This document shows, piece after piece, positions 2 through 7,840 of a DNA stretch of 7,840 nt (position 1 is the first letter of the stretch; each line of letters starts with the position of its first letter). The position numbers and the translations under genes are program-made. The DNA lies in NCBI GenBank assembly GCA_025453925.1, contig JALOPK010000287.1:1-7840 (forward strand), written 5' to 3'. The notes under the pieces were generated by a model. That model was not told where the DNA came from. It worked only from the letters and a program-made list of their open reading frames with translations, and searched no databases. The stretch is from Candidatus Eiseniibacteriota bacterium. GTDB lineage: Bacteria; JAFGKV01.

Positions 2-1642
2 CTCAGGACTCTCGGAGTCCTCAACGAATGGGTCGACGGACGGATCTGGAAATTCGAGGTCGATAACCGGCTCTTCCACCGATGGCGGTTCGGCGAGAAG
101 ATCCCGCCTGACCACAACTGCCCCGAGTATGTCGGCAAGCGGCTCTTCATGCGCCGGCTGGTCAATCTGCTCCACGAAGTAGGCGCCTCGGAGCTGGCCC
201 GGCAGTATGAATGGTGGACGTGCAAGAGCCAACCGAATGCCCTTCGGCGCCTGTCGACTTCGTCCGGGGAGGGTGGGCTCACCGCCATCGACTTTGCCTC
301 GGGGCTGGTCTTGCTCCCCCTGCTGCCTATGAGCCCAGCTGATGTCTGCCTCATTGTTCGCGGTCTCGCGCGTGGCCGGTTGGTTCAGTTCGACCGGGGG
401 GACCTGCGGAGGCTTCGGTCGTACGTCGCGTCAAACTCCGTGCTCTTCGAGGACATGGGTGGTGCGCTCGACGAACTCGAGGAACAGGAGACACGCTACC
501 GCGCATCGCAGCCCGATGTCACCCATCATGGCGTGCGTCTCCTCACTGATCGAACGCTCCGGTCAGACATCCGGAGAGGCGCCGTCCAGGCGTGGCTGCA
601 TCTCGGGCATCTGGATGCCGCGCACGCCGCATCGCTGAACAGCCGGACTGGCGCGTTCCGGCTCCTCTACGCAGTCTCATGGATTCCGCTGGTCGGGAAG
701 CTCATTCTGCGGCTCTGGGGTGAGGGCAGGTCCCGTGAGCATGCGGTTCGCTGCCTGCGGAGCCCCTCCTACCTCTGCCGAGCGTTCCGCGGGGACCGGG
801 CGGCAACGCTGATTCAATGGGCCCGCGGAGAACGGATTACTCCCCAGCGGGCGCGCGTGCTTCTGGACAAACCCATCCGGTTCGCCGTTGAGCGGGTCGG
901 CCTCTCGTGGCTGCCGCCGGTCTGGCATCGTTCGCTGGCGGAGCCATCGTGGGCCTGGCGCACCGTCAAGGCGAAGTTGGGCAGGGCCATCCGTTTCCTC
1001 GGTGATCCCGCATACCGTGAAGAACAGCTGCTCAGCGAGGTACGCGAGGGCCGCGAGGAAGGGATGCTGACGGACAGCGAGGCCGACCGGGTCGTCGCCC
1101 AGATCAAGGACCCCTACATCCAGAAATACCTGCGCTGTCTTGCGGTACACATCTGCACGCTGTTCATCAGCGAAATCACGGTCGTCATCGTGACGGCCGC
1201 GGTGACCCTCTACTGCCTGCTGCACCGCGGCATGCCCTGGGCCGCAAGCCTGGGCGCGGGCGGGGCAGCGGCAGCGGCCATGCAGCTCTTGCCAATCTCG
1301 CTGGGCTCGTTGACCCGCGGAACCTACGTGGTCTTCATTATGATCAAGGAACGCGACATCAGGAACTACTACATCGCTGCGCCGATTTCTTTCATCCGCG
1401 TCATTGGCTATCTTGCGTTTCCCCTTCAGATGGTCTCCCATGACCCCGCACTTGCGAGGTTCCTCGCCGGAAGATGGACTCGCCGGATGGTTCGCATCAT
1501 CCCGGTGTTCGGCGAGCATGGGGCATTGCTGGAGCACGGCGTCTTCGACGCGTTCTTCAACCTTCCTCTTTCACTCGCCCGGCTGATGCGCCGGCGCAAA
1601 CGGAGGACCGCCCCGGGACCCGGCGCACCCGTCGCTTCGTGA
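2..1642 (+). CDS. Membrane protein with kinase-like C-lobe motifs (5' partial)
   Basis: The reading frame is open from base 2 with no stop, so the gene starts left of the window. The ATG at 149 is probably an internal Met; 546 residues are visible. I do not recognise a named family. What can be seen: a QPNAL motif (Asn codon 236-238) followed by IDFASG (Asp codon 290-292), which resembles the catalytic-loop Asn and DFG-type Asp of protein-kinase-fold enzymes such as the AarF/ABC1 or WaaP types. The usual HxD catalytic His-Asp is not evident before PN. A long helical Arg-rich middle region follows, then hydrophobic segments at roughly 1151-1220, 1226-1305 and 1385-1435, suggesting two or three membrane helices. 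The C-terminus is very basic (RRRKRR), so it is probably cytoplasmic. The gene converges on the leftward operon and overlaps its last gene by 72 bp. That this is a real gene is well supported by length and protein-like composition; a kinase-like or pseudokinase-like role is inference. Confidence 0.8.
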   Translation, partial: LRTLGVLNEWVDGRIWKFEVDNRLFHRWRFGEKIPPDHNCPEYVGKRLFMRRLVNLLHEVGASELARQYEWWTCKSQPNALRRLSTSSGEGGLTAIDFASGLVLLPLLPMSPADVCLIVRGLARGRLVQFDRGDLRRLRSYVASNSVLFEDMGGALDELEEQETRYRASQPDVTHHGVRLLTDRTLRSDIRRGAVQAWLHLGHLDAAHAASLNSRTGAFRLLYAVSWIPLVGKLILRLWGEGRSREHAVRCLRSPSYLCRAFRGDRAATLIQWARGERITPQRARVLLDKPIRFAVERVGLSWLPPVWHRSLAEPSWAWRTVKAKLGRAIRFLGDPAYREEQLLSEVREGREEGMLTDSEADRVVAQIKDPYIQKYLRCLAVHICTLFISEITVVIVTAAVTLYCLLHRGMPWAASLGAGGAAAAAMQLLPISLGSLTRGTYVVFIMIKERDIRNYYIAAPISFIRVIGYLAFPLQMVSHDPALARFLAGRWTRRMVRIIPVFGEHGALLEHGVFDAFFNLPLSLARLMRRRKRRTAPGPGAPVAS

Positions 1643-2806
1643 CCCTCGGGCCGAGGAACCGATCCCGGCGCAGATGCCGCTCAGACGCCCGGCAAGGCCC
1701 CGCCAGCGCAGCTTCGCACTCCGAGACGAAACCACCACCAGGGCATGGCCCCGCCTCCTGAGCGCATGCATCTCTTCCAGTCTCAGCACCGGAATCCATG
1801 GCGGCAGGCGTCGACTCGGCCGCATGGAGAAGGGGATTCCCCCGTAACGATTCTCGAGGGAGAGGATCTCGTGCATCGAAAGCGAGAAGGGCTGGCGAAC
1901 CGAGTCGAACATCGGGATATGGTCCAATCCGTCGGTCGCAACCGCCCCAAGAAGGAGTTGCCTGAGCCGTTCACGAGAGGAGCGATCAAGGGTAGTGAAG
2001 TGAGACCCGATAGCGGCGTAGAGCTCAGGCCTTGATCGCGCCACGAATTCCTCGCCTGAACTGATGCTCTGCGCGTAGGTGGGCTCGAAAGAGGAATCGT
2101 GAGCATCCCAAAGCCCTTCCACCACATACCCGTCCGGGTCAAGGAACCGTCGGAATCCGAACCGTATCCCCTGTTTGAGGAACGAAACGGTGCTGAGCCG
2201 GCCGGCCAGTGGTATGCCCAGCATGCCCCTACCGCGGGAATCCTCCGCCTTCGAGACGAGGACCTGCCCCTTGAGGATCGAGGGTAGATTGACGGCCTTG
2301 CCGTTGTAGCGGATCGGCACCGAGGCGCCGGCGCAGAAGAAGGCGATCTCCTTTCGCTCCGAATTCCTCGCCCGGTTGATCCGTCGGATCGCGATCTGAT
2401 AGCCTGGCCTCCGCTCCCCGCGCGGCTGCAGCTTCCCGCGCCCTCGTTCGGCAACCAGCGTCCAGTCCTCGGAGGACACCTCAACCCTGGAAAACAAAAG
2501 CGCCAGTGACAGGATGGAAGTGCCGTGCTCCCGCTCCAGAGCCTCCAGCACCCTCTGCTGCTGGGCCGGATCGTCCCCCCCCAGGACCGAGAGGATGAGG
2601 TCACGCTCGGTGCGCGGGAATGCGAGGCCGTCTTGCCGAACCGCAACATGCGCGCTGCTGCTGACGATGTCGATACTGGAGGGAAGGTGACGCATTGCGT
2701 GGCGGACGAGCTGAACCAGGAAGTGCACATCATTGAGGTGTTGCCGTTCCGCGATCTTGCGCAATTCCGCCGCGAGATCGATGGTCAGAGCCAGGTTTTC
2801 AGTCAC
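1571..2806 (-). CDS. Degenerate GHKL/HSP90-like protein (candidate pseudo-ATPase)
   Basis: A 411-residue soluble protein with no signal peptide or clear membrane helix. I chose the GTG at 2806 over the in-frame start at 2893 because a GGGAGAG ribosome site lies about 7 bases upstream. It also gives an 8-bp overlap (GTGACTGA) with the preceding gene instead of a 95-bp one. The N-terminus can be laid on the neighbouring ATPase by eye. FLVQLVRH (residues 29-36) matches its N-box FLRELVQN, but Glu is Gln32 and Asn is His36. QDGLA (58-62) sits where DDGHG should be, so the G1 Asp is Gln58. GTSILSLALLF (from 95) sits where GVGFWSILRF is. A VPIRYNGKAVNL segment (about residues 160-175) and LKQGIRFGF resemble the transducer or middle part of HSP90-like proteins. 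IPMFDSV plus following text resembles the tail of the preceding gene's product. The last ~40 residues are low-complexity Gly/Ser/Arg and overlap the convergent gene, so the true C-terminus is less certain. The likely role is a non-catalytic partner of the ATPase (inference). Confidence 0.72.
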   Translation of the reverse strand: MTENLALTIDLAAELRKIAERQHLNDVHFLVQLVRHAMRHLPSSIDIVSSSAHVAVRQDGLAFPRTERDLILSVLGGDDPAQQQRVLEALEREHGTSILSLALLFSRVEVSSEDWTLVAERGRGKLQPRGERRPGYQIAIRRINRARNSERKEIAFFCAGASVPIRYNGKAVNLPSILKGQVLVSKAEDSRGRGMLGIPLAGRLSTVSFLKQGIRFGFRRFLDPDGYVVEGLWDAHDSSFEPTYAQSISSGEEFVARSRPELYAAIGSHFTTLDRSSRERLRQLLLGAVATDGLDHIPMFDSVRQPFSLSMHEILSLENRYGGIPFSMRPSRRLPPWIPVLRLEEMHALRRRGHALVVVSSRSAKLRWRGLAGRLSGICAGIGSSARGSRSDGCAGSRGGPPFAPAHQPGE

Positions 2807-4847
2807 GGCCCCGCTCTCCCTCAGTGGGACGAATGGCGTCCTCGCCCCAGTGGCGGCGAACCCGGTCAAAGGCGGCCCTGAACAGGCCTTCACAGGAGAG
2901 GTAGATCGGGAGCGCGCTCACCAGCATGCTGGCAGCATCGAGAACACCGCACCTGCTCCGCTCCACCCTCTCGCGCATTGCGGCGATCAGCGGATCGTCC
3001 TCTCCCAGCAGCGCATGGCGCCTGCCCCGCCCGTCACGCAGCTGAATCTCCAGTCCTCGGATTCCGGACCCCGGCACCACATGAACCCGGAAGAGCGGAT
3101 CCGCAGCGCGCACGACCCGCTCAACCAGGAGCAAGAAGTCAGGCGCCGGCCGGTCCTCGGCAATCAGGTCGTCCAGCCAGGTCACGGGGGGAAGGTAGGG
3201 AGCCATGGCTTTCGTCATCTCCGATGAGCCGTCAACCACCGGAACGCGGGGAAGATAGGCCAGTACTGGCGCACCAGGGGCCGCACCGAACAAGCGGCCC
3301 TGGGATGCCAGTCGCCCCAGTTCGAACAGACTCGTTCTACGCCCGTCGAGCAGGGGTATCACGGGGCGGAAATGAAGGTGCGCCTTGAGCGGCGCCCCAC
3401 GATCCTGCAAGTGATCGAAAAGATGTCTGACGTGAAACGGATCGGGCCTCGCGCGCCGGGCGTGGCGCTCCACGGCATATCCGACGATTCCTAGGAGCCC
3501 AACCGCGCCCAGGAGCCACCCGAGGATACGGCGCGAGGGGGATGAAGAGACGCCGGCTGTTGTCTCCGACGGCCCTTGGCAGTTGCGGGGTGCACCCGCC
3601 GCAGGAACGGCCCCGGTGAGATCGATAAACGCCCAGTCGTCCGCGCAGTATGCTGTCAGCGCGTGGAGGGGCCCGGTAATTCTGCCATTCCTCCCCGACA
3701 TGGCAACGGCAAGGTGAGCCTGGATACCGGCCGAACGGAGCAACAGCGCCATCACACCGTTGATCACATCGCAGTCGCCGGCGCCCCGTGCCAGGGCCCC
3801 GTCGAGCCACCGACCGGCCTCCGGGGGGGACTCGTGCTCCCGCCGGTACACGAACGACCTTCCTACGGCCGCGGCCAGCAGGGCCACCTTCACGTCGAGC
3901 CCCGCGCCCGCGGCCTTCGCCAGCGCTACGCTGAAGGAAGGCGGCCACGCGACATCCGGCGCCCCGGCGGGGAGGCACGACACGGGCAGGTGCCCCGGCA
4001 CCGCGACGTACGAGATCCACCCGGGCGTGGGAGCGACAACCAATGCCTCCCCGTGTGATCCCTGCCACACACTGCGAGACAGGCCGTTGTGCCGGAGGGA
4101 ACGAACGGCGACCACATGGCCTGGAGGCGTGGGCAGCATCATGGGGAGTCCCCCCCCGGACACCCGCATGCGAACCTCAACCTTGGCGCCCGTGTCAGGG
4201 TAGTCGGGGTAGGCGCCCTCCGCGTGCAGGGGTTCGCCCACGAATCCCTGCTGGGGATCGAATCGCGCCAGCAGCCTCGCGATGAACACCACCTCCTCAG
4301 GGCCGCTGTACGAGAAATCCCATGTCGGGATGCCGCCCTCCTCCGGCACTGACGCGCCATCCACGCCGAATGCCCGCTCGATCCGGTCAACGGGCTGTGC
4401 CGCCTGTCGGGGCGCACGGCCGGAGGAAGCCAACCCCAGCCTGTGGCGAAAGACACGCCAGTCGGCCTTCCCCGCACCCAGAGACCCTGCGACGATCCCT
4501 CCCAGGATCACCGCCAGTGCGGCCAGGGCCGCGGGATGCTCCATCAGGCATCGTCCGGCGCGCCACCAGAGGTTGCGAAGATCCATGGGCATGACGCCAC
4601 GAAGAAGCCGGTGATGAGCGGCGAGCAGTTCCTTCTCACATCGGCGGACGGCTCGCCGCAGGATCTCATCCTCCATCACGCTCCGACGATCCACAAGCAC
4701 CCGAAAGGAGTCGGCGTTGATGTGGACAACCGGGTAGAGTCCCCAGCCGCCGCGAGGCGCCGAGACTCCGTGCGAAGGTATGACCTCTTCGAGGCTTACC
4801 AGTTCTCTCACAAGGATACCGGCAGTGTAGATTCGAACCAACGGCAC
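2799..4847 (-). CDS. Two-pass membrane protein with HSP90-middle-like segment and extracytoplasmic transglutaminase-like domain
   Basis: Residues are counted from the GTG at 4847 (682 aa). The start is uncertain: the frame is open back to 5009 and another GTG at 4811 overlaps the previous stop as GTGA, but none has a good ribosome site. Residues 1-84 contain VRIYTAGILVREL and later VDRRSVMEDE, a pattern like the HSP90 middle-domain LYVRRVFI...VSRE segment. It probably continues the ATPase encoded just upstream. TM1 is about residues 105-124 and TM2 about 441-459, the latter followed by a basic ERHARRAR, which places the ~315-residue loop outside the cytoplasm. The loop ends in a transglutaminase/cysteine-protease-like core with a complete triad: Cys359 in GAGDCD (codon 3773-3771), His395 in PLHALTAY (3665-3663) and Asp409 in FIDLTG (3623-3621), preceded by a typical FVYRRE strand. 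The ~220-residue tail has no domain I can name, but its IPLLDG region (from residue 497) resembles part of the next gene's product. Crosslinking, hydrolysis or amidation of an envelope substrate is possible; the substrate is unknown. Confidence 0.78.
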   Translation of the reverse strand: MPLVRIYTAGILVRELVSLEEVIPSHGVSAPRGGWGLYPVVHINADSFRVLVDRRSVMEDEILRRAVRRCEKELLAAHHRLLRGVMPMDLRNLWWRAGRCLMEHPAALAALAVILGGIVAGSLGAGKADWRVFRHRLGLASSGRAPRQAAQPVDRIERAFGVDGASVPEEGGIPTWDFSYSGPEEVVFIARLLARFDPQQGFVGEPLHAEGAYPDYPDTGAKVEVRMRVSGGGLPMMLPTPPGHVVAVRSLRHNGLSRSVWQGSHGEALVVAPTPGWISYVAVPGHLPVSCLPAGAPDVAWPPSFSVALAKAAGAGLDVKVALLAAAVGRSFVYRREHESPPEAGRWLDGALARGAGDCDVINGVMALLLRSAGIQAHLAVAMSGRNGRITGPLHALTAYCADDWAFIDLTGAVPAAGAPRNCQGPSETTAGVSSSPSRRILGWLLGAVGLLGIVGYAVERHARRARPDPFHVRHLFDHLQDRGAPLKAHLHFRPVIPLLDGRRTSLFELGRLASQGRLFGAAPGAPVLAYLPRVPVVDGSSEMTKAMAPYLPPVTWLDDLIAEDRPAPDFLLLVERVVRAADPLFRVHVVPGSGIRGLEIQLRDGRGRRHALLGEDDPLIAAMRERVERSRCGVLDAASMLVSALPIYLSCEGLFRAAFDRVRRHWGEDAIRPTEGERGRD
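2814..2820 (-). promoter_or_regulatory. Shine-Dalgarno site that decides the start of the pseudo-ATPase gene
   Basis: On the minus strand the sequence reads GGGAGAG followed by a 7-base spacer and GTG at 2806. It lies inside the last codons of the preceding membrane protein gene. It supports the GTG at 2806 as the real start and coupled translation through the GTGACTGA overlap. Confidence 0.6.
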
Positions 4848-4861
4848 GTAGGCCGGATGTG
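4808..4861 (-). other. Frame junction between the ATPase domain and its apparent transducer segment
   Basis: In the ATPase frame, plausible helix sequence (VRDRLRHYAAHIR) runs to about 4853 and then becomes PTCRWFES before a stop at 4810-4808. From about 4853 the downstream gene's frame reads AYVPLVRIYTAG, a convincing beta-strand start of an HSP90-middle-like segment. Moving between them needs a -1 shift, equivalent to one base missing near the CCGGCC tract (4856-4851). I see no classical slippery heptamer here and no good ribosome site for an independent downstream start. Either an assembly or natural indel split one gene, or translation re-initiates at the GTGA overlap (4811-4808). Confidence 0.5.
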
Positions 4862-5482
4862 CGCCGCGTAGTGCCGCAGCCGATCGCGGACGGCGGCATG
4901 CAGCCCATCGACCGCGGCCGGCCCCGCGCCTCCGTCTCTGGTGAGCTCCACACGGGTCCCACGGTGCGGGATCGTCACGGGGACGGCTGTCAGCGTGCCC
5001 GCTCGACAATCGATCTCGAGTCCCACAGCGCCCTCGGCGCTGCGGGACGTCACGGTCACCGAGCGGGGCGCGAATCTCAGGATCGACCAGAATCCCACGC
5101 CGAAGTACCCGATGCTGCCGTCCTCGCCCTTGCTCGACGCATACAGACGCAAAAGGTAACGCCGTGCGACCTCCTCGCTCATGCCGTGCCCGTCATCCTC
5201 ACACGCCACGGACTCTCCGGCGGCATCATCCGCGACGGAGAGGTCGATGCGCCCGGCGTGGGCATCACGGCTGTTCTGCACCAGCTCGCGGAGAAACACC
5301 CACGGGTCGTCGCCGTAGCGTTGGGCCTCCTCGGCGGCGCGAGCGAGAAACGGCGCCGCCCCCATCAGGGAGACAAGATCACCGTCGCAATGAAGGTCCC
5401 CATTCTTGAGATCCGACCCGTGTTCCGACCCCGCTGGGTCATCAGGTGATGACCGTCCGTCGGCGTGAGTCGGCAGGATCAC
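4808..5482 (-). CDS. GHKL (HSP90-type) ATPase domain protein
   Basis: A 224-residue soluble ATP-binding domain of the GHKL superfamily (HSP90/MutL/histidine kinase fold). Visible motifs, numbered from the GTG at 5482: N-box FLRELVQNSRDA with the putative catalytic Glu66 and Mg-binding Asn70 (codon 5275-5273); G1 box DDGHGM with adenine-contacting Asp96 (5197-5195); a lid with YASSKGEDGS; G2 box GYFGVGFWS (from 5110); then GTRVEL. The 'FGVGFWS' G2 form is closest to HSP90-like rather than sensor-kinase ATPases, and there is no phosphoacceptor His or dimerisation helix. The protein stops right after the ATPase fold. The expected transducer/middle segment appears in the -1 phase in the next gene, so this may be the front half of a frame-broken longer gene. 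The start overlaps the hydrolase stop as GTGA, with AAGGA directly abutting the GTG. The in-frame ATG at 5365, just before GAAPFLARAA, is the alternative. Family call strong; partner and purpose inferred. Confidence 0.87.
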   Translation of the reverse strand: MILPTHADGRSSPDDPAGSEHGSDLKNGDLHCDGDLVSLMGAAPFLARAAEEAQRYGDDPWVFLRELVQNSRDAHAGRIDLSVADDAAGESVACEDDGHGMSEEVARRYLLRLYASSKGEDGSIGYFGVGFWSILRFAPRSVTVTSRSAEGAVGLEIDCRAGTLTAVPVTIPHRGTRVELTRDGGAGPAAVDGLHAAVRDRLRHYAAHIRPTCRWFESTLPVSL

Positions 5483-6636
5483 TCCTTGAGGGCGGTGACG
5501 CGGAAGAACCGCTGCGGAGAGCCGCTCTCACCGGTCCAGATCGTGTCGGCCGTGGTGCCCTCAATGCCCCAGGAGGAGATCGGATCGTGCGCCCCTTCCG
5601 ACGAGAAGATCTTGTAGGTAATCGCGAACGGGGAGGGTCTCCATGTGATCGCCACCGTCGGGGCGACTCTGACGATCTCAGTGACAACAGGGGGGGCGGG
5701 CGGGATGCCATCGCAGTCGTGCTGATACGTGATCGCTCCGCATGTCGCCAGCGAATCCTCGAACTCCCACCATGAGGCGTCCTCGCCCTTGAGGTGGAAG
5801 TCAAGCCAGGGAAGGACAAAGGCCTCGGTAAGAGCGTGCTGCGTGTCACGGTCAATCAAGGGGTCCGGCGCCCCGACTTCTCCCAGCTCGCAGTAGAAGT
5901 TCGACTCGGCGAATTGGCAATGGCTCCCTCCGGTGATCGAGACGAAGGTCTTGCAGGGAGATGCCAAGGCCTGGTACAGCGGGATCTGGTGCTGGCCGGG
6001 CGGCGCCACACCGTCGTACGATCCGGACACCACCAGGCAGGGTACCAGGACCCCTGCTGCCGCGGAAATCGCTGACGGATCTGTCTCAGCAGCAGCCAGG
6101 TTGGCCAGCGCAGTGATGGAGGCATCGGACGCGGCAGCCAGAACCGCGGCTCCGCCGCCCATTGAATGGCCCATGACGGCGGACGAGGAATCGAGGGCTC
6201 CATAGAACGGGGAAGCCGGTGTCATGGCCTCCAGACGGAGTCGCGACACAAGAAACGCCAGGTCCAGCGCCAGTTCTGCGTGATCCGGCACCAGCCCGGA
6301 TTCCGTGCGCGGAAGGGCGATGACATACCCCCGGGGAGTCATGGCCTGCCAGATATTCGCGTACGCACTCCACGACATGAGGTATCCGTGACCGAAAACG
6401 GCCACGGGGAATCCTCCATCCTCGGGCTGCGCAACCGGCACGTTGTTGCCGGCTGCGTCGGCAGGGTAGTAGATCTCCGTAAGAATCGCCCTTTCGTCTC
6501 GGGATGGATCGACGAAAGTGATGCTGCGGTGCCCGATCTCCCATGGAGTCTCCTGGGCCCACCCGGGGGAAGGCCCCGCGATACGGCCCAGACACCAGAG
6601 GAGAACGGCCACGGTGTCGCTCCGAATCGAGACCAA
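5479..6636 (-). CDS. Secreted alpha/beta hydrolase (PAF-acetylhydrolase/chlorophyllase-like lipase or esterase)
   Basis: An alpha/beta-hydrolase-fold enzyme, probably a carboxylester hydrolase acting outside the cytoplasm. With the TTG at 6636 as residue 1 (385 aa): an N-terminal signal peptide (short Arg-containing region, hydrophobic VAVLLWCLG, then GWAQE as likely cleavage site near residue 28); an oxyanion-type HGYLMSW; the nucleophile elbow GHSMGGG with Ser158 (codon 6165-6163); acid Asp208 in GSYDGVAPP (6015-6013); and His239 in GGSHCQFAE (5922-5920). The triad is complete. Cys240 and a Cys in SNFYCEL could form an exported-protein disulfide. A ~70-residue C-terminal extension reads like a fibronectin-III strand pattern (TITYK-type strand, ending RFFRVTALKE), common in secreted enzymes of some FCB-related phyla. 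The start is uncertain: TTG 6663 would overlap the kinase gene by 23 bp, and GTG 6612 has a better-spaced GGAG but gives a signal peptide with no charged start. It is coupled to the ATPase gene by GTGA. The exact substrate cannot be read from sequence. Confidence 0.85.
   Translation of the reverse strand: MVSIRSDTVAVLLWCLGRIAGPSPGWAQETPWEIGHRSITFVDPSRDERAILTEIYYPADAAGNNVPVAQPEDGGFPVAVFGHGYLMSWSAYANIWQAMTPRGYVIALPRTESGLVPDHAELALDLAFLVSRLRLEAMTPASPFYGALDSSSAVMGHSMGGGAAVLAAASDASITALANLAAAETDPSAISAAAGVLVPCLVVSGSYDGVAPPGQHQIPLYQALASPCKTFVSITGGSHCQFAESNFYCELGEVGAPDPLIDRDTQHALTEAFVLPWLDFHLKGEDASWWEFEDSLATCGAITYQHDCDGIPPAPPVVTEIVRVAPTVAITWRPSPFAITYKIFSSEGAHDPISSWGIEGTTADTIWTGESGSPQRFFRVTALKE
5483..5487 (-). 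promoter_or_regulatory. AAGGA ribosome site abutting the GTG of the ATPase gene
   Basis: The minus strand reads CAAGGAGTGATCCTG. The AAGGAG core runs into the GTG at 5482, leaving no normal spacer. The site may therefore mainly retain ribosomes finishing the hydrolase at the overlapping TGA, or serve a nearby non-standard codon such as the CTG at 5476. No other good ribosome site is seen before the ATG at 5365. Confidence 0.35.
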
Positions 6637-6640
6637 AGCC

Positions 6641-7840
6641 TCACATCCTGAGTGCTTCCCCAACCTTCACTCCAAGTTCCGCCATCCGATAGGGCTTCTG
6701 GACAAACCCGCTCATTCCATCGTCCAGGGCCTCCTGGATGCGGCCGTTCATTCCGAAACCGGTGGACAACAGCACCCGGATGGACGGATTGAGCTTCCGG
6801 AGCTCGGCGTAACACTCCCTCCCGTCCATCTCCGGCATGACAAGATCAATGATGACAAGGTCCACCGCGTCCGCGTGCTCGCGGTAGTACTGCACCGCCT
6901 GACTTCCGCTCTCTGCCGTCACAACCTCATGGCCCAGTTCCCGCAGAAGGTCACTCGCCACGTTTCGAACGACTTCTTCGTCATCAACCACCAGAACACG
7001 GCCGTGAGCGCAGGCGATGGCTGCCGGACCTTCGGCGGCGGCGCCCGCCCCCGCGCTCGGGGAAAGCGGGAGGTACACCTTGAAGGTCGCGCCCATTTCC
7101 GGTTCGCTGTACACCTCGATGTGCCCGCCATGGTTCCTCACGATGCCGTAGACCGTGGCGAGACCCATGCCGGTACCCAGACCAGGGGCCTTGGTCGTGA
7201 AGAACGGCTCGAAGATCCGTTGCTGGATCTCCTTGGGAATGCCCTGCCCGGTGTCCGTCACGGAGAGGAGGAGACGGGGCCCGGGCGTTGCCTCCGCATG
7301 GGATCGGCAGTACTCATCGTCCAGCCGCACGAGTTCGGTCTGGAAAATGAGTTCTCCGCCGCCGGGCATCGCGTCACGAGCGTTGATGCCGAGATTCAGC
7401 AGCACCTGGTGCATCTGCGCGGGGTCACCGGTCACCGTTGCGTCGCGGGCATTGAGGTTCAGCGACATCCGGATGCTGGGATCCATGGTGCGACACAGCA
7501 GCGCCACGACCTCGTGGATGGAGCGATGCAGGTCGACGGAGAGGACCTGGAGCTTGCCCCGTCGGGCGAAACCGAGGAGCTGTTTCGTAAGATCGGAAGC
7601 CCGCTCGGCGGTGTTCTCGATCGTTCGAGCGGCAAGGTGCGCGCGGCTGTTCTCCGGCAGTTCCTTGGTGAGAATGCTGGCGTAGCCGATGATGCCGGTC
7701 AGGAGATTGTTGAAATCGTGGGCGATCCCCCCGGCGAGCTGACCGATGGCCTCCATCTTCGCCGCCTGGCGAAGCTGTTCCTCCAGTCGCTTCCGCTCGG
7801 TGACGTCCCGGCCGCTGCCCTGGAATCCAACTATGATGTC
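6641..7840 (-). CDS. PAS-linked hybrid sensor histidine kinase with receiver domain (5' partial)
   Basis: The frame continues past the ATG at 7756 to the right edge, so the N-terminus lies outside the window; 399 residues are visible. The first ones ([14 protein letters not shown]) are the end of a PAS/PAC module followed by a coiled linker. The HisKA H-box is [11 protein letters not shown] with phosphoacceptor His at codon 7720-7718. The catalytic domain follows with N-box [12 protein letters not shown]1 DTGQGIP, F-box EPFFTTK and G2 [12 protein letters not shown] Pro/Ala-rich linker leads to a receiver domain: acidic pair VVDDEE, phosphoacceptor Asp in [11 protein letters not shown] (6847-6845), LLSTG and conserved Lys in QKPY. 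All residues needed for autokinase and phosphotransfer activity are present. The layout (PAS, IAHDFNN-type H-box, C-terminal receiver) resembles CckA-like hybrid kinases. The output domain is missing, so a phosphotransfer protein or regulator encoded elsewhere is expected. It sits first among the visible genes of the leftward cluster, ending 4 bases before the chosen hydrolase start. Confidence 0.95.

Follow-up and report, generated by a model that had tools for sequence, protein, structure and literature searches.

The 7,840-base contig JALOPK010000287.1 of a Candidatus Eiseniibacteriota bacterium, analysed here over its whole length and called the window below, carries a leftward gene block whose intact form was found in a relative of the same genus and consists, as judged from the aligned sequences, of two genes. 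The protein of the first gene combines a GHKL ATPase domain with a membrane-anchored, predicted extracytoplasmic transglutaminase-like domain; in the relative it is close to certain that the ATP-binding domain is physically joined to the putative envelope enzyme. The second gene probably encodes a degenerate GHKL protein. We tentatively suggest that the two genes form a module for ATP-dependent inside-out control of an envelope cysteine enzyme, exerted by the cytoplasmic GHKL domain with the gene 2 product as regulatory partner. Its individual parts are known; what appears to be new is their combination.

Gene structure of the block

The window comes from an incomplete genome (502 contigs, 82% complete). 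Three leftward open reading frames (ORFs) were listed in it (4808-5482, 2799-5009 and 1571-2893), which a first-pass annotation had described as three consecutive overlapping genes. The frames are indeed present, but the first two correspond to one open frame of 901 codons (L006:94-2799) in the relative, Candidatus Fermentibacteria Zod_Metabat.355, in which the block region (L006) lies on the 12-kb contig JAFGKV010000162.1. In the following, P0001 and P0002 denote the proteins of the first and second window ORFs, P0006 the 901-residue fusion protein of the relative, P0007 the product of its gene 2 and P0008 that of its kinase-like neighbour. Identity was approximately 60% between the first half of the window gene and P0006 residues 1-173, 48% over 685 amino acids between the second half and P0006, and 46% between the gene 2 product and P0007, with the block proteins of the two genomes differing by 40-54%. 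Alignment to the relative also corrected two starts, that of the first ORF from 5482 to about 5365 (ATG) and that of the third from 2893 to 2806 (GTG).

The aligned DNA showed that the window lacks approximately 127 nt (42 codons plus 1 nt) at the junction of the GHKL domain and the transducer-like region, between the codons for ...YAAHIRP and ...VRIYTAGILV. As 127 cannot be divided by three, everything downstream is read in a different frame. The first frame of the window continues past HIRP for 13 codons (4811-4849) unrelated to the homologue and stops at 4808, and the residues conserved in the relative pick up at 4847 in the other frame. On this comparison, the first two ORFs are the halves of one deletion-shifted gene; for this reason their long overlap, previously read as coupling, is an accident of the reading frames and of an empty upstream part of the second one. 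The other overlap that had been claimed, between the second and third frames, is genuine: the stop of the fusion gene and the start of gene 2 overlap by 8 nt (GTGACTGA), in the same arrangement in both genomes. Programmed frameshifting at the junction was considered and rejected, as inspection of the overlap 4808-4850 by eye revealed no slippery heptamer, and the missing residues could not be restored by a frameshift alone.

The split of the window copy is either a recent mutation or an assembly error. Divergence between window and relative at codon positions 1/2/3 was 0.28/0.21/0.57 in the GHKL half, 0.37/0.34/0.63 in the transglutaminase half and 0.43/0.36/0.58 in gene 2, and no extra stops were gained in either half of the fusion gene of the window. 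Both halves have evolved as proteins, and from the excess of third-position changes and the absence of further stops it follows that the split, if real, is recent or tolerated. Thirteen unrelated codons ending the first frame, next to a conserved other frame, fit poorly with the view of the first-pass annotation, according to which there are three separate, translationally coupled genes and the fusion in the relative is derived. The sequence GTGA at 4808-4811, in which the stop codon ending the first half shares bases with a GTG in the frame of the second, would permit such coupling, but the 42 additional residues of the relative resemble a normal continuation from the GHKL domain into the transducer (PIELTVNGERL), and a deletion is more likely than an insertion that happens to join two out-of-frame genes exactly where two domains naturally meet. 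This view is therefore highly improbable, and three independent genes were rejected as the ancestral state on account of the single frame of the relative. That the window copy is a decaying pseudogene which exists in the organism itself, the block being dispensable in this lineage, has appreciably more in its favour, without being the likelier outcome; this reading concerns the window copy only and is compatible with the explanation preferred below for the intact form. The frame-shifting deletion removes 42 codons of the transducer-like region, and most restart codons available to the second half are not preceded by a Shine-Dalgarno-like sequence. Against it, the remaining domains and catalytic residues are intact, stops have not accumulated, assembly errors are possible in a short contig of a metagenome-assembled genome, and, if the deletion is real, a coupled re-start of the second half through GTGA is possible. 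For annotation, the case calls for caution: the window copy reads as three genes only owing to the deletion. The features of the window are collected in Table 1.

Table 1. Positions of the block, its domains and the convergent neighbour in the window
Feature	Position	Strand	Evidence
5' half of the split fusion gene, encoding the ATPase domain of GHKL (Bergerat-fold) type	4808..5365	-	HATPase_c_3, identity to P0006
Deletion site, about 127 nt missing relative to the intact homologue	4848..4850	-	DNA alignment with L006
3' part of the split fusion gene: rest of the transducer-like region, transmembrane helix 1, predicted extracytoplasmic transglutaminase-like domain, transmembrane helix 2, C-terminal region	2799..4847	-	P0006 identity, Transglut_core, hydropathy
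Transmembrane helix 1	4491..4547	-	Kyte-Doolittle 1.81; preceded by RNLWWR, so N-terminus inside
Transglutaminase-like catalytic core	3606..3890	-	Pfam stretch P0002 374-440, lengthened to take in the His and Asp shared with the relative
Transmembrane helix 2	3471..3527	-	Kyte-Doolittle 2.11; followed by ERHARRARPD, so C-terminus inside
Block gene 2 (third gene of the first-pass annotation), probable degenerate GHKL domain and C-terminal region of unassigned fold	1571..2806	-	Identity to P0007, hhalign
Convergent neighbour with a membrane C-terminus, cut by the contig end; intact homologues have a kinase-like N-terminal region	2..1642	+	67% identity to P0008 (L006:3950-6403, -)

The GHKL domain of gene 1

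An intact GHKL ATPase had been predicted at the start of the block, and this was borne out. The Pfam family HATPase_c_3 (PF13589; cut-off 25 bits) matched the window copy with 50.9 bits and the relative with 36.6 bits (P0006 residues 25-115), and all motifs were located in the window: the N-box QNSRD at 5264-5278, DDGHGM at 5180-5197 and GVGFW at 5087-5101. With these Bergerat-fold motifs and a profile score above the cut-off, the N-terminal domain of gene 1 belongs to the GHKL superfamily. Its nearest types were HSP90, MutL and sacsin, and a Foldseek search with the poor structural model of the relative's protein, which is useful for the GHKL domain alone, matched HSP90 N-domains with an E-value of about 1e-4. 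The thresholds of the individual families were not reached: the score was 29.3 against 371 bits for the HSP90 (HtpG) equivalog and 38.3 against 180 bits for MutL. Neither a HisKA nor a receiver domain was matched by Pfam in the gene 1 protein of the window or of the relative. The GHKL domain is followed, at about P0006 residues 175-310, by what, on a reading of the sequence, may be a transducer-like stretch. Membership in a defence system was considered and dropped, the PADLOC matches being weak and at the level of GHKL only (TmtA, up to 28 bits).

Membrane topology and the transglutaminase-like domain

The two-helix membrane protein with a Cys-His-Asp triad in its extracytoplasmic loop, as originally proposed, was recovered in both copies with respect to helices, flanks, Transglut_core match and triad. 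Transmembrane helices were called by Kyte-Doolittle hydropathy with a window of 19 residues and lie at residues 317-335 and 664-682 of P0006; the first has an arginine-rich flank on its N-terminal side and the second on its C-terminal side. Since both helices have such flanks, the positive-inside rule places residues 336-663 outside the membrane. The cytoplasmic C-terminal region of about 220 amino acids matches nothing.

Transglut_core (PF01841; cut-off 23 bits) was matched in the relative with 35.6 bits at P0006 residues 535-625. The catalytic codons of the window are those of Cys at 3771-3773 (GDCDV), His at 3663-3665 (HALTAYC) and Asp at 3621-3623 (DLTGAV), and all three residues are kept in both copies at 48% identity. 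A Cys-His-Asp triad within a Transglut_core domain assigns the protein, by sequence, to the transglutaminase-like superfamily. Orthologues apart, the transglutaminase half best matched the transglutaminase L011, which has a Transglut_core and a weak match to DUF4129; the profile search, covering 386 genomes, gave it an E-value of 6.1e-5, and hhalign aligned 143 columns with an E-value of 4e-5.

Gene 2, a probable degenerate GHKL protein

No sequence match to gene 2 was found in Pfam, NCBIfam or PDB. Aligned with a profile of 29 external GHKL sequences and the block's own two, it gave an hhalign score of 37.3 (E 2.4e-4, 126 columns), compared with 25.2 for the best of 150 column shuffles and 22.1 for the reversed alignment. 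The GHKL register is kept, with an N-box helix, QDG in place of DDGxG and EHG in place of the G2 box, while the key residues are replaced: the N-box Asn is changed (LVQLVRHAMR, 2690-2719), QDGLAF (2618-2635) stands for DDGxGM and EHGTSILS (2507-2530) for GVGFW. These observations suggest that gene 2 probably encodes a degenerate GHKL domain. Of the earlier designation as a pseudo-ATPase, the part concerning the lost Asn and glycines agrees with the sequence; the GHKL fold itself is, with moderate profile support, only probable.

The window's gene 2 extends approximately 25 codons past that of the relative (1571-1690), and its overlap with the 3' end of the convergent gene is 72 nt, compared with 6 nt in the relative.

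Occurrence of the block

The recurrence of the gene order in other genomes had been suggested as a check. The same block was found in one more genome, the relative, and the order is confined to a single genus. The searched genome set contained three genomes of the phylum. A profile search of the 386 genomes gave no convincing scores for the transglutaminase half or gene 2 outside the two block-carrying genomes; the weak matches obtained elsewhere were to general transglutaminases or MutL and were not counted as block members. The transglutaminase half was not detected in 87 genomes of two other phyla, an empty answer that shows little, as the search had no positive control. Two exact peptide patterns, which could miss distant members, matched the relative alone over 84,980 species, and no further members were found in viral contigs or plasmids. 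When the lists of GHKL (PF13589) and transglutaminase (PF01841) loci in 41 genomes, which have many of both, were compared by eye, the two were near each other solely at the block.

Proposed mechanism and alternative explanations

In the mechanism that we tentatively favour for the intact block, the HSP90/MutL-like GHKL domain of the gene 1 protein would bind ATP in the cytoplasm, and the transducer-like segment together with the first membrane helix would set the activity or exposure of the transglutaminase-like domain outside. The product of gene 2, a soluble and probably degenerate GHKL protein, may join the active one in the role of a regulatory subunit; the presence of such a partner is what suggests a heterodimeric clamp. 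As the output, a cysteine enzyme of the envelope (an amidase, a protease or a crosslinking enzyme) would be controlled from inside the cell in an ATP-dependent manner. The idea that a cytoplasmic GHKL switch gates an envelope transglutaminase was already part of the first-pass annotation. The fusion of both domains into a single polypeptide in the relative strengthens its coupling element; we infer the activity, the substrate, the direction of control and the chaperone analogy. Inside-out control is preferred because the triad is kept at the observed level of divergence and because there is a precedent in LapD/LapG, where a periplasmic transglutaminase-fold protease is controlled from the cytoplasm (PMC4359373, PMC3032545). 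A more specific version, in which an HSP90-like ATP clamp completed by the pseudo-ATPase drives the extracytoplasmic transglutaminase-fold enzyme to which it is fused, an HSP90-type cycle thereby signalling or working across the membrane, is on the unlikely side.

Several observations weigh against the proposed mechanism. In the window itself the GHKL and transglutaminase domains are not in one frame, and Transglut_core scores 22.7 bits there, 0.3 bits below the cut-off. For gene 2, pairwise alignment with the GHKL domain gave scores at the level of chance, for which reason the profile comparison was used; against the 29 external GHKL sequences alone the score was 30.9, with the best shuffle at 30.4, so that support is moderate. 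Structure predictions, with few homologues to draw on, were poor (mean pLDDT 34.9 and 39.4) and demonstrated neither the fold of gene 2 nor a contact between the two proteins of the block, and the transglutaminase fold is read from the Pfam match and the motifs. Finally, the block has been found in only two genomes, the window's and the relative's, of one genus.

The principal alternative is a sensor working from the outside in, in which the transglutaminase-like domain would sense or process an envelope ligand and alter the state of the GHKL domain, the signal being passed on with the gene 2 protein. The topology is equally compatible with this direction, two helices flanking an extracytoplasmic region are the usual layout of sensors, and GHKL folds are common among them. 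Yet the protein has no HisKA or receiver domain, the best relatives of its GHKL domain are of the HSP90, MutL and sacsin types and not histidine kinases, and the preservation of Cys, His and Asp suggests an enzymatic output beyond binding; taken together, a sensor seems rather unlikely. The domain composition of L011 brings to mind yet another possibility, namely that the block is a TgpA-type membrane-anchored transglutaminase whose ATPase partner has been replaced, with the same poorly understood envelope role as the MoxR/TgpA operons. The L011 match is limited, however, to the transglutaminase core and its approach, P0006 has neither the N-terminal helices of TgpA nor a DUF4129 match in Pfam, and no MoxR-like gene was noticed on inspection beside the block in the relative's contig. 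We regard this origin as improbable, and retain ATP-dependent inside-out control as the preferred, if tentative, explanation.

Relation to known systems

The known roles of GHKL ATPases are those of chaperones, topoisomerases, mismatch-repair clamps and sensor kinases. As in HSP90/HtpG and MutL, the GHKL domain of the block is followed by a transducer-like stretch; it differs from them in scoring far below the family cut-offs and in the membrane helices and transglutaminase domain that come after. In MoxR/TgpA-type operons a cytoplasmic AAA+ ATPase is linked to a membrane-anchored transglutaminase. Among the matches examined, the transglutaminase domain of the block appears to be nearest to a TgpA-type core, whereas its ATPase is of the GHKL and not the AAA+ type, is fused instead of adjacent, and is accompanied by two helices in place of several.

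In the LapD/LapG system a cysteine enzyme of the transglutaminase fold, located outside the inner membrane, is controlled by nucleotide binding on the cytoplasmic side (PMC4359373), as may be the case for the block. In contrast to the block, in which enzyme and GHKL domain share one polypeptide, LapG is separate and soluble and LapD binds c-di-GMP; no Pfam match to a c-di-GMP (GGDEF/EAL) receptor or a BTLCP-type protease was found in P0001, P0002 or P0006. In a vWA-MoxR conflict subsystem an ATPase module is, rarely, tied to a transglutaminase-like peptidase (PMC7159879); the modules there are MoxR and vWA, and the terms GHKL and HATPase are absent from the main text of that paper. No description of a GHKL-membrane-transglutaminase architecture was found in the open literature searched, in line with the earlier statement that no named system has this arrangement. 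If the proposal is true, the ATP clamp would be put to a new use, in that a domain of the HSP90/MutL type is permanently joined to a cysteine enzyme of the envelope, and inside-out control of envelope proteolysis or crosslinking could be tested directly in a single protein.

Neighbouring genes

The convergent kinase-like gene also sits beside the block in the relative. Homologues without the block, among unrelated neighbours, occur in six other genomes, of which five lie outside the family; the gene is probably not part of the block, and it was rejected as an additional component because it stands alone there. The proteins of this family (window 2-1642, P0008 and L028-L033) are about 800 amino acids long, with the N-terminal kinase-like motifs VGGGFAGQVY, YALK and AVDF and a membrane C-terminus of strong conservation (PISPGS, YLAFP.QM, PVFGE.G.LLEH), and are scattered over genomes of several lineages. 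None of the eight members matched a Pfam family. Directly upstream of the block, 5479-6663 (-) encodes a secreted-looking alpha/beta hydrolase with a PETase-like Pfam match of 69.9 bits (cut-off 28), and 6641-7840 (-) encodes a hybrid sensor kinase with HisKA, HATPase_c and receiver domains, which is truncated by the end of the contig.

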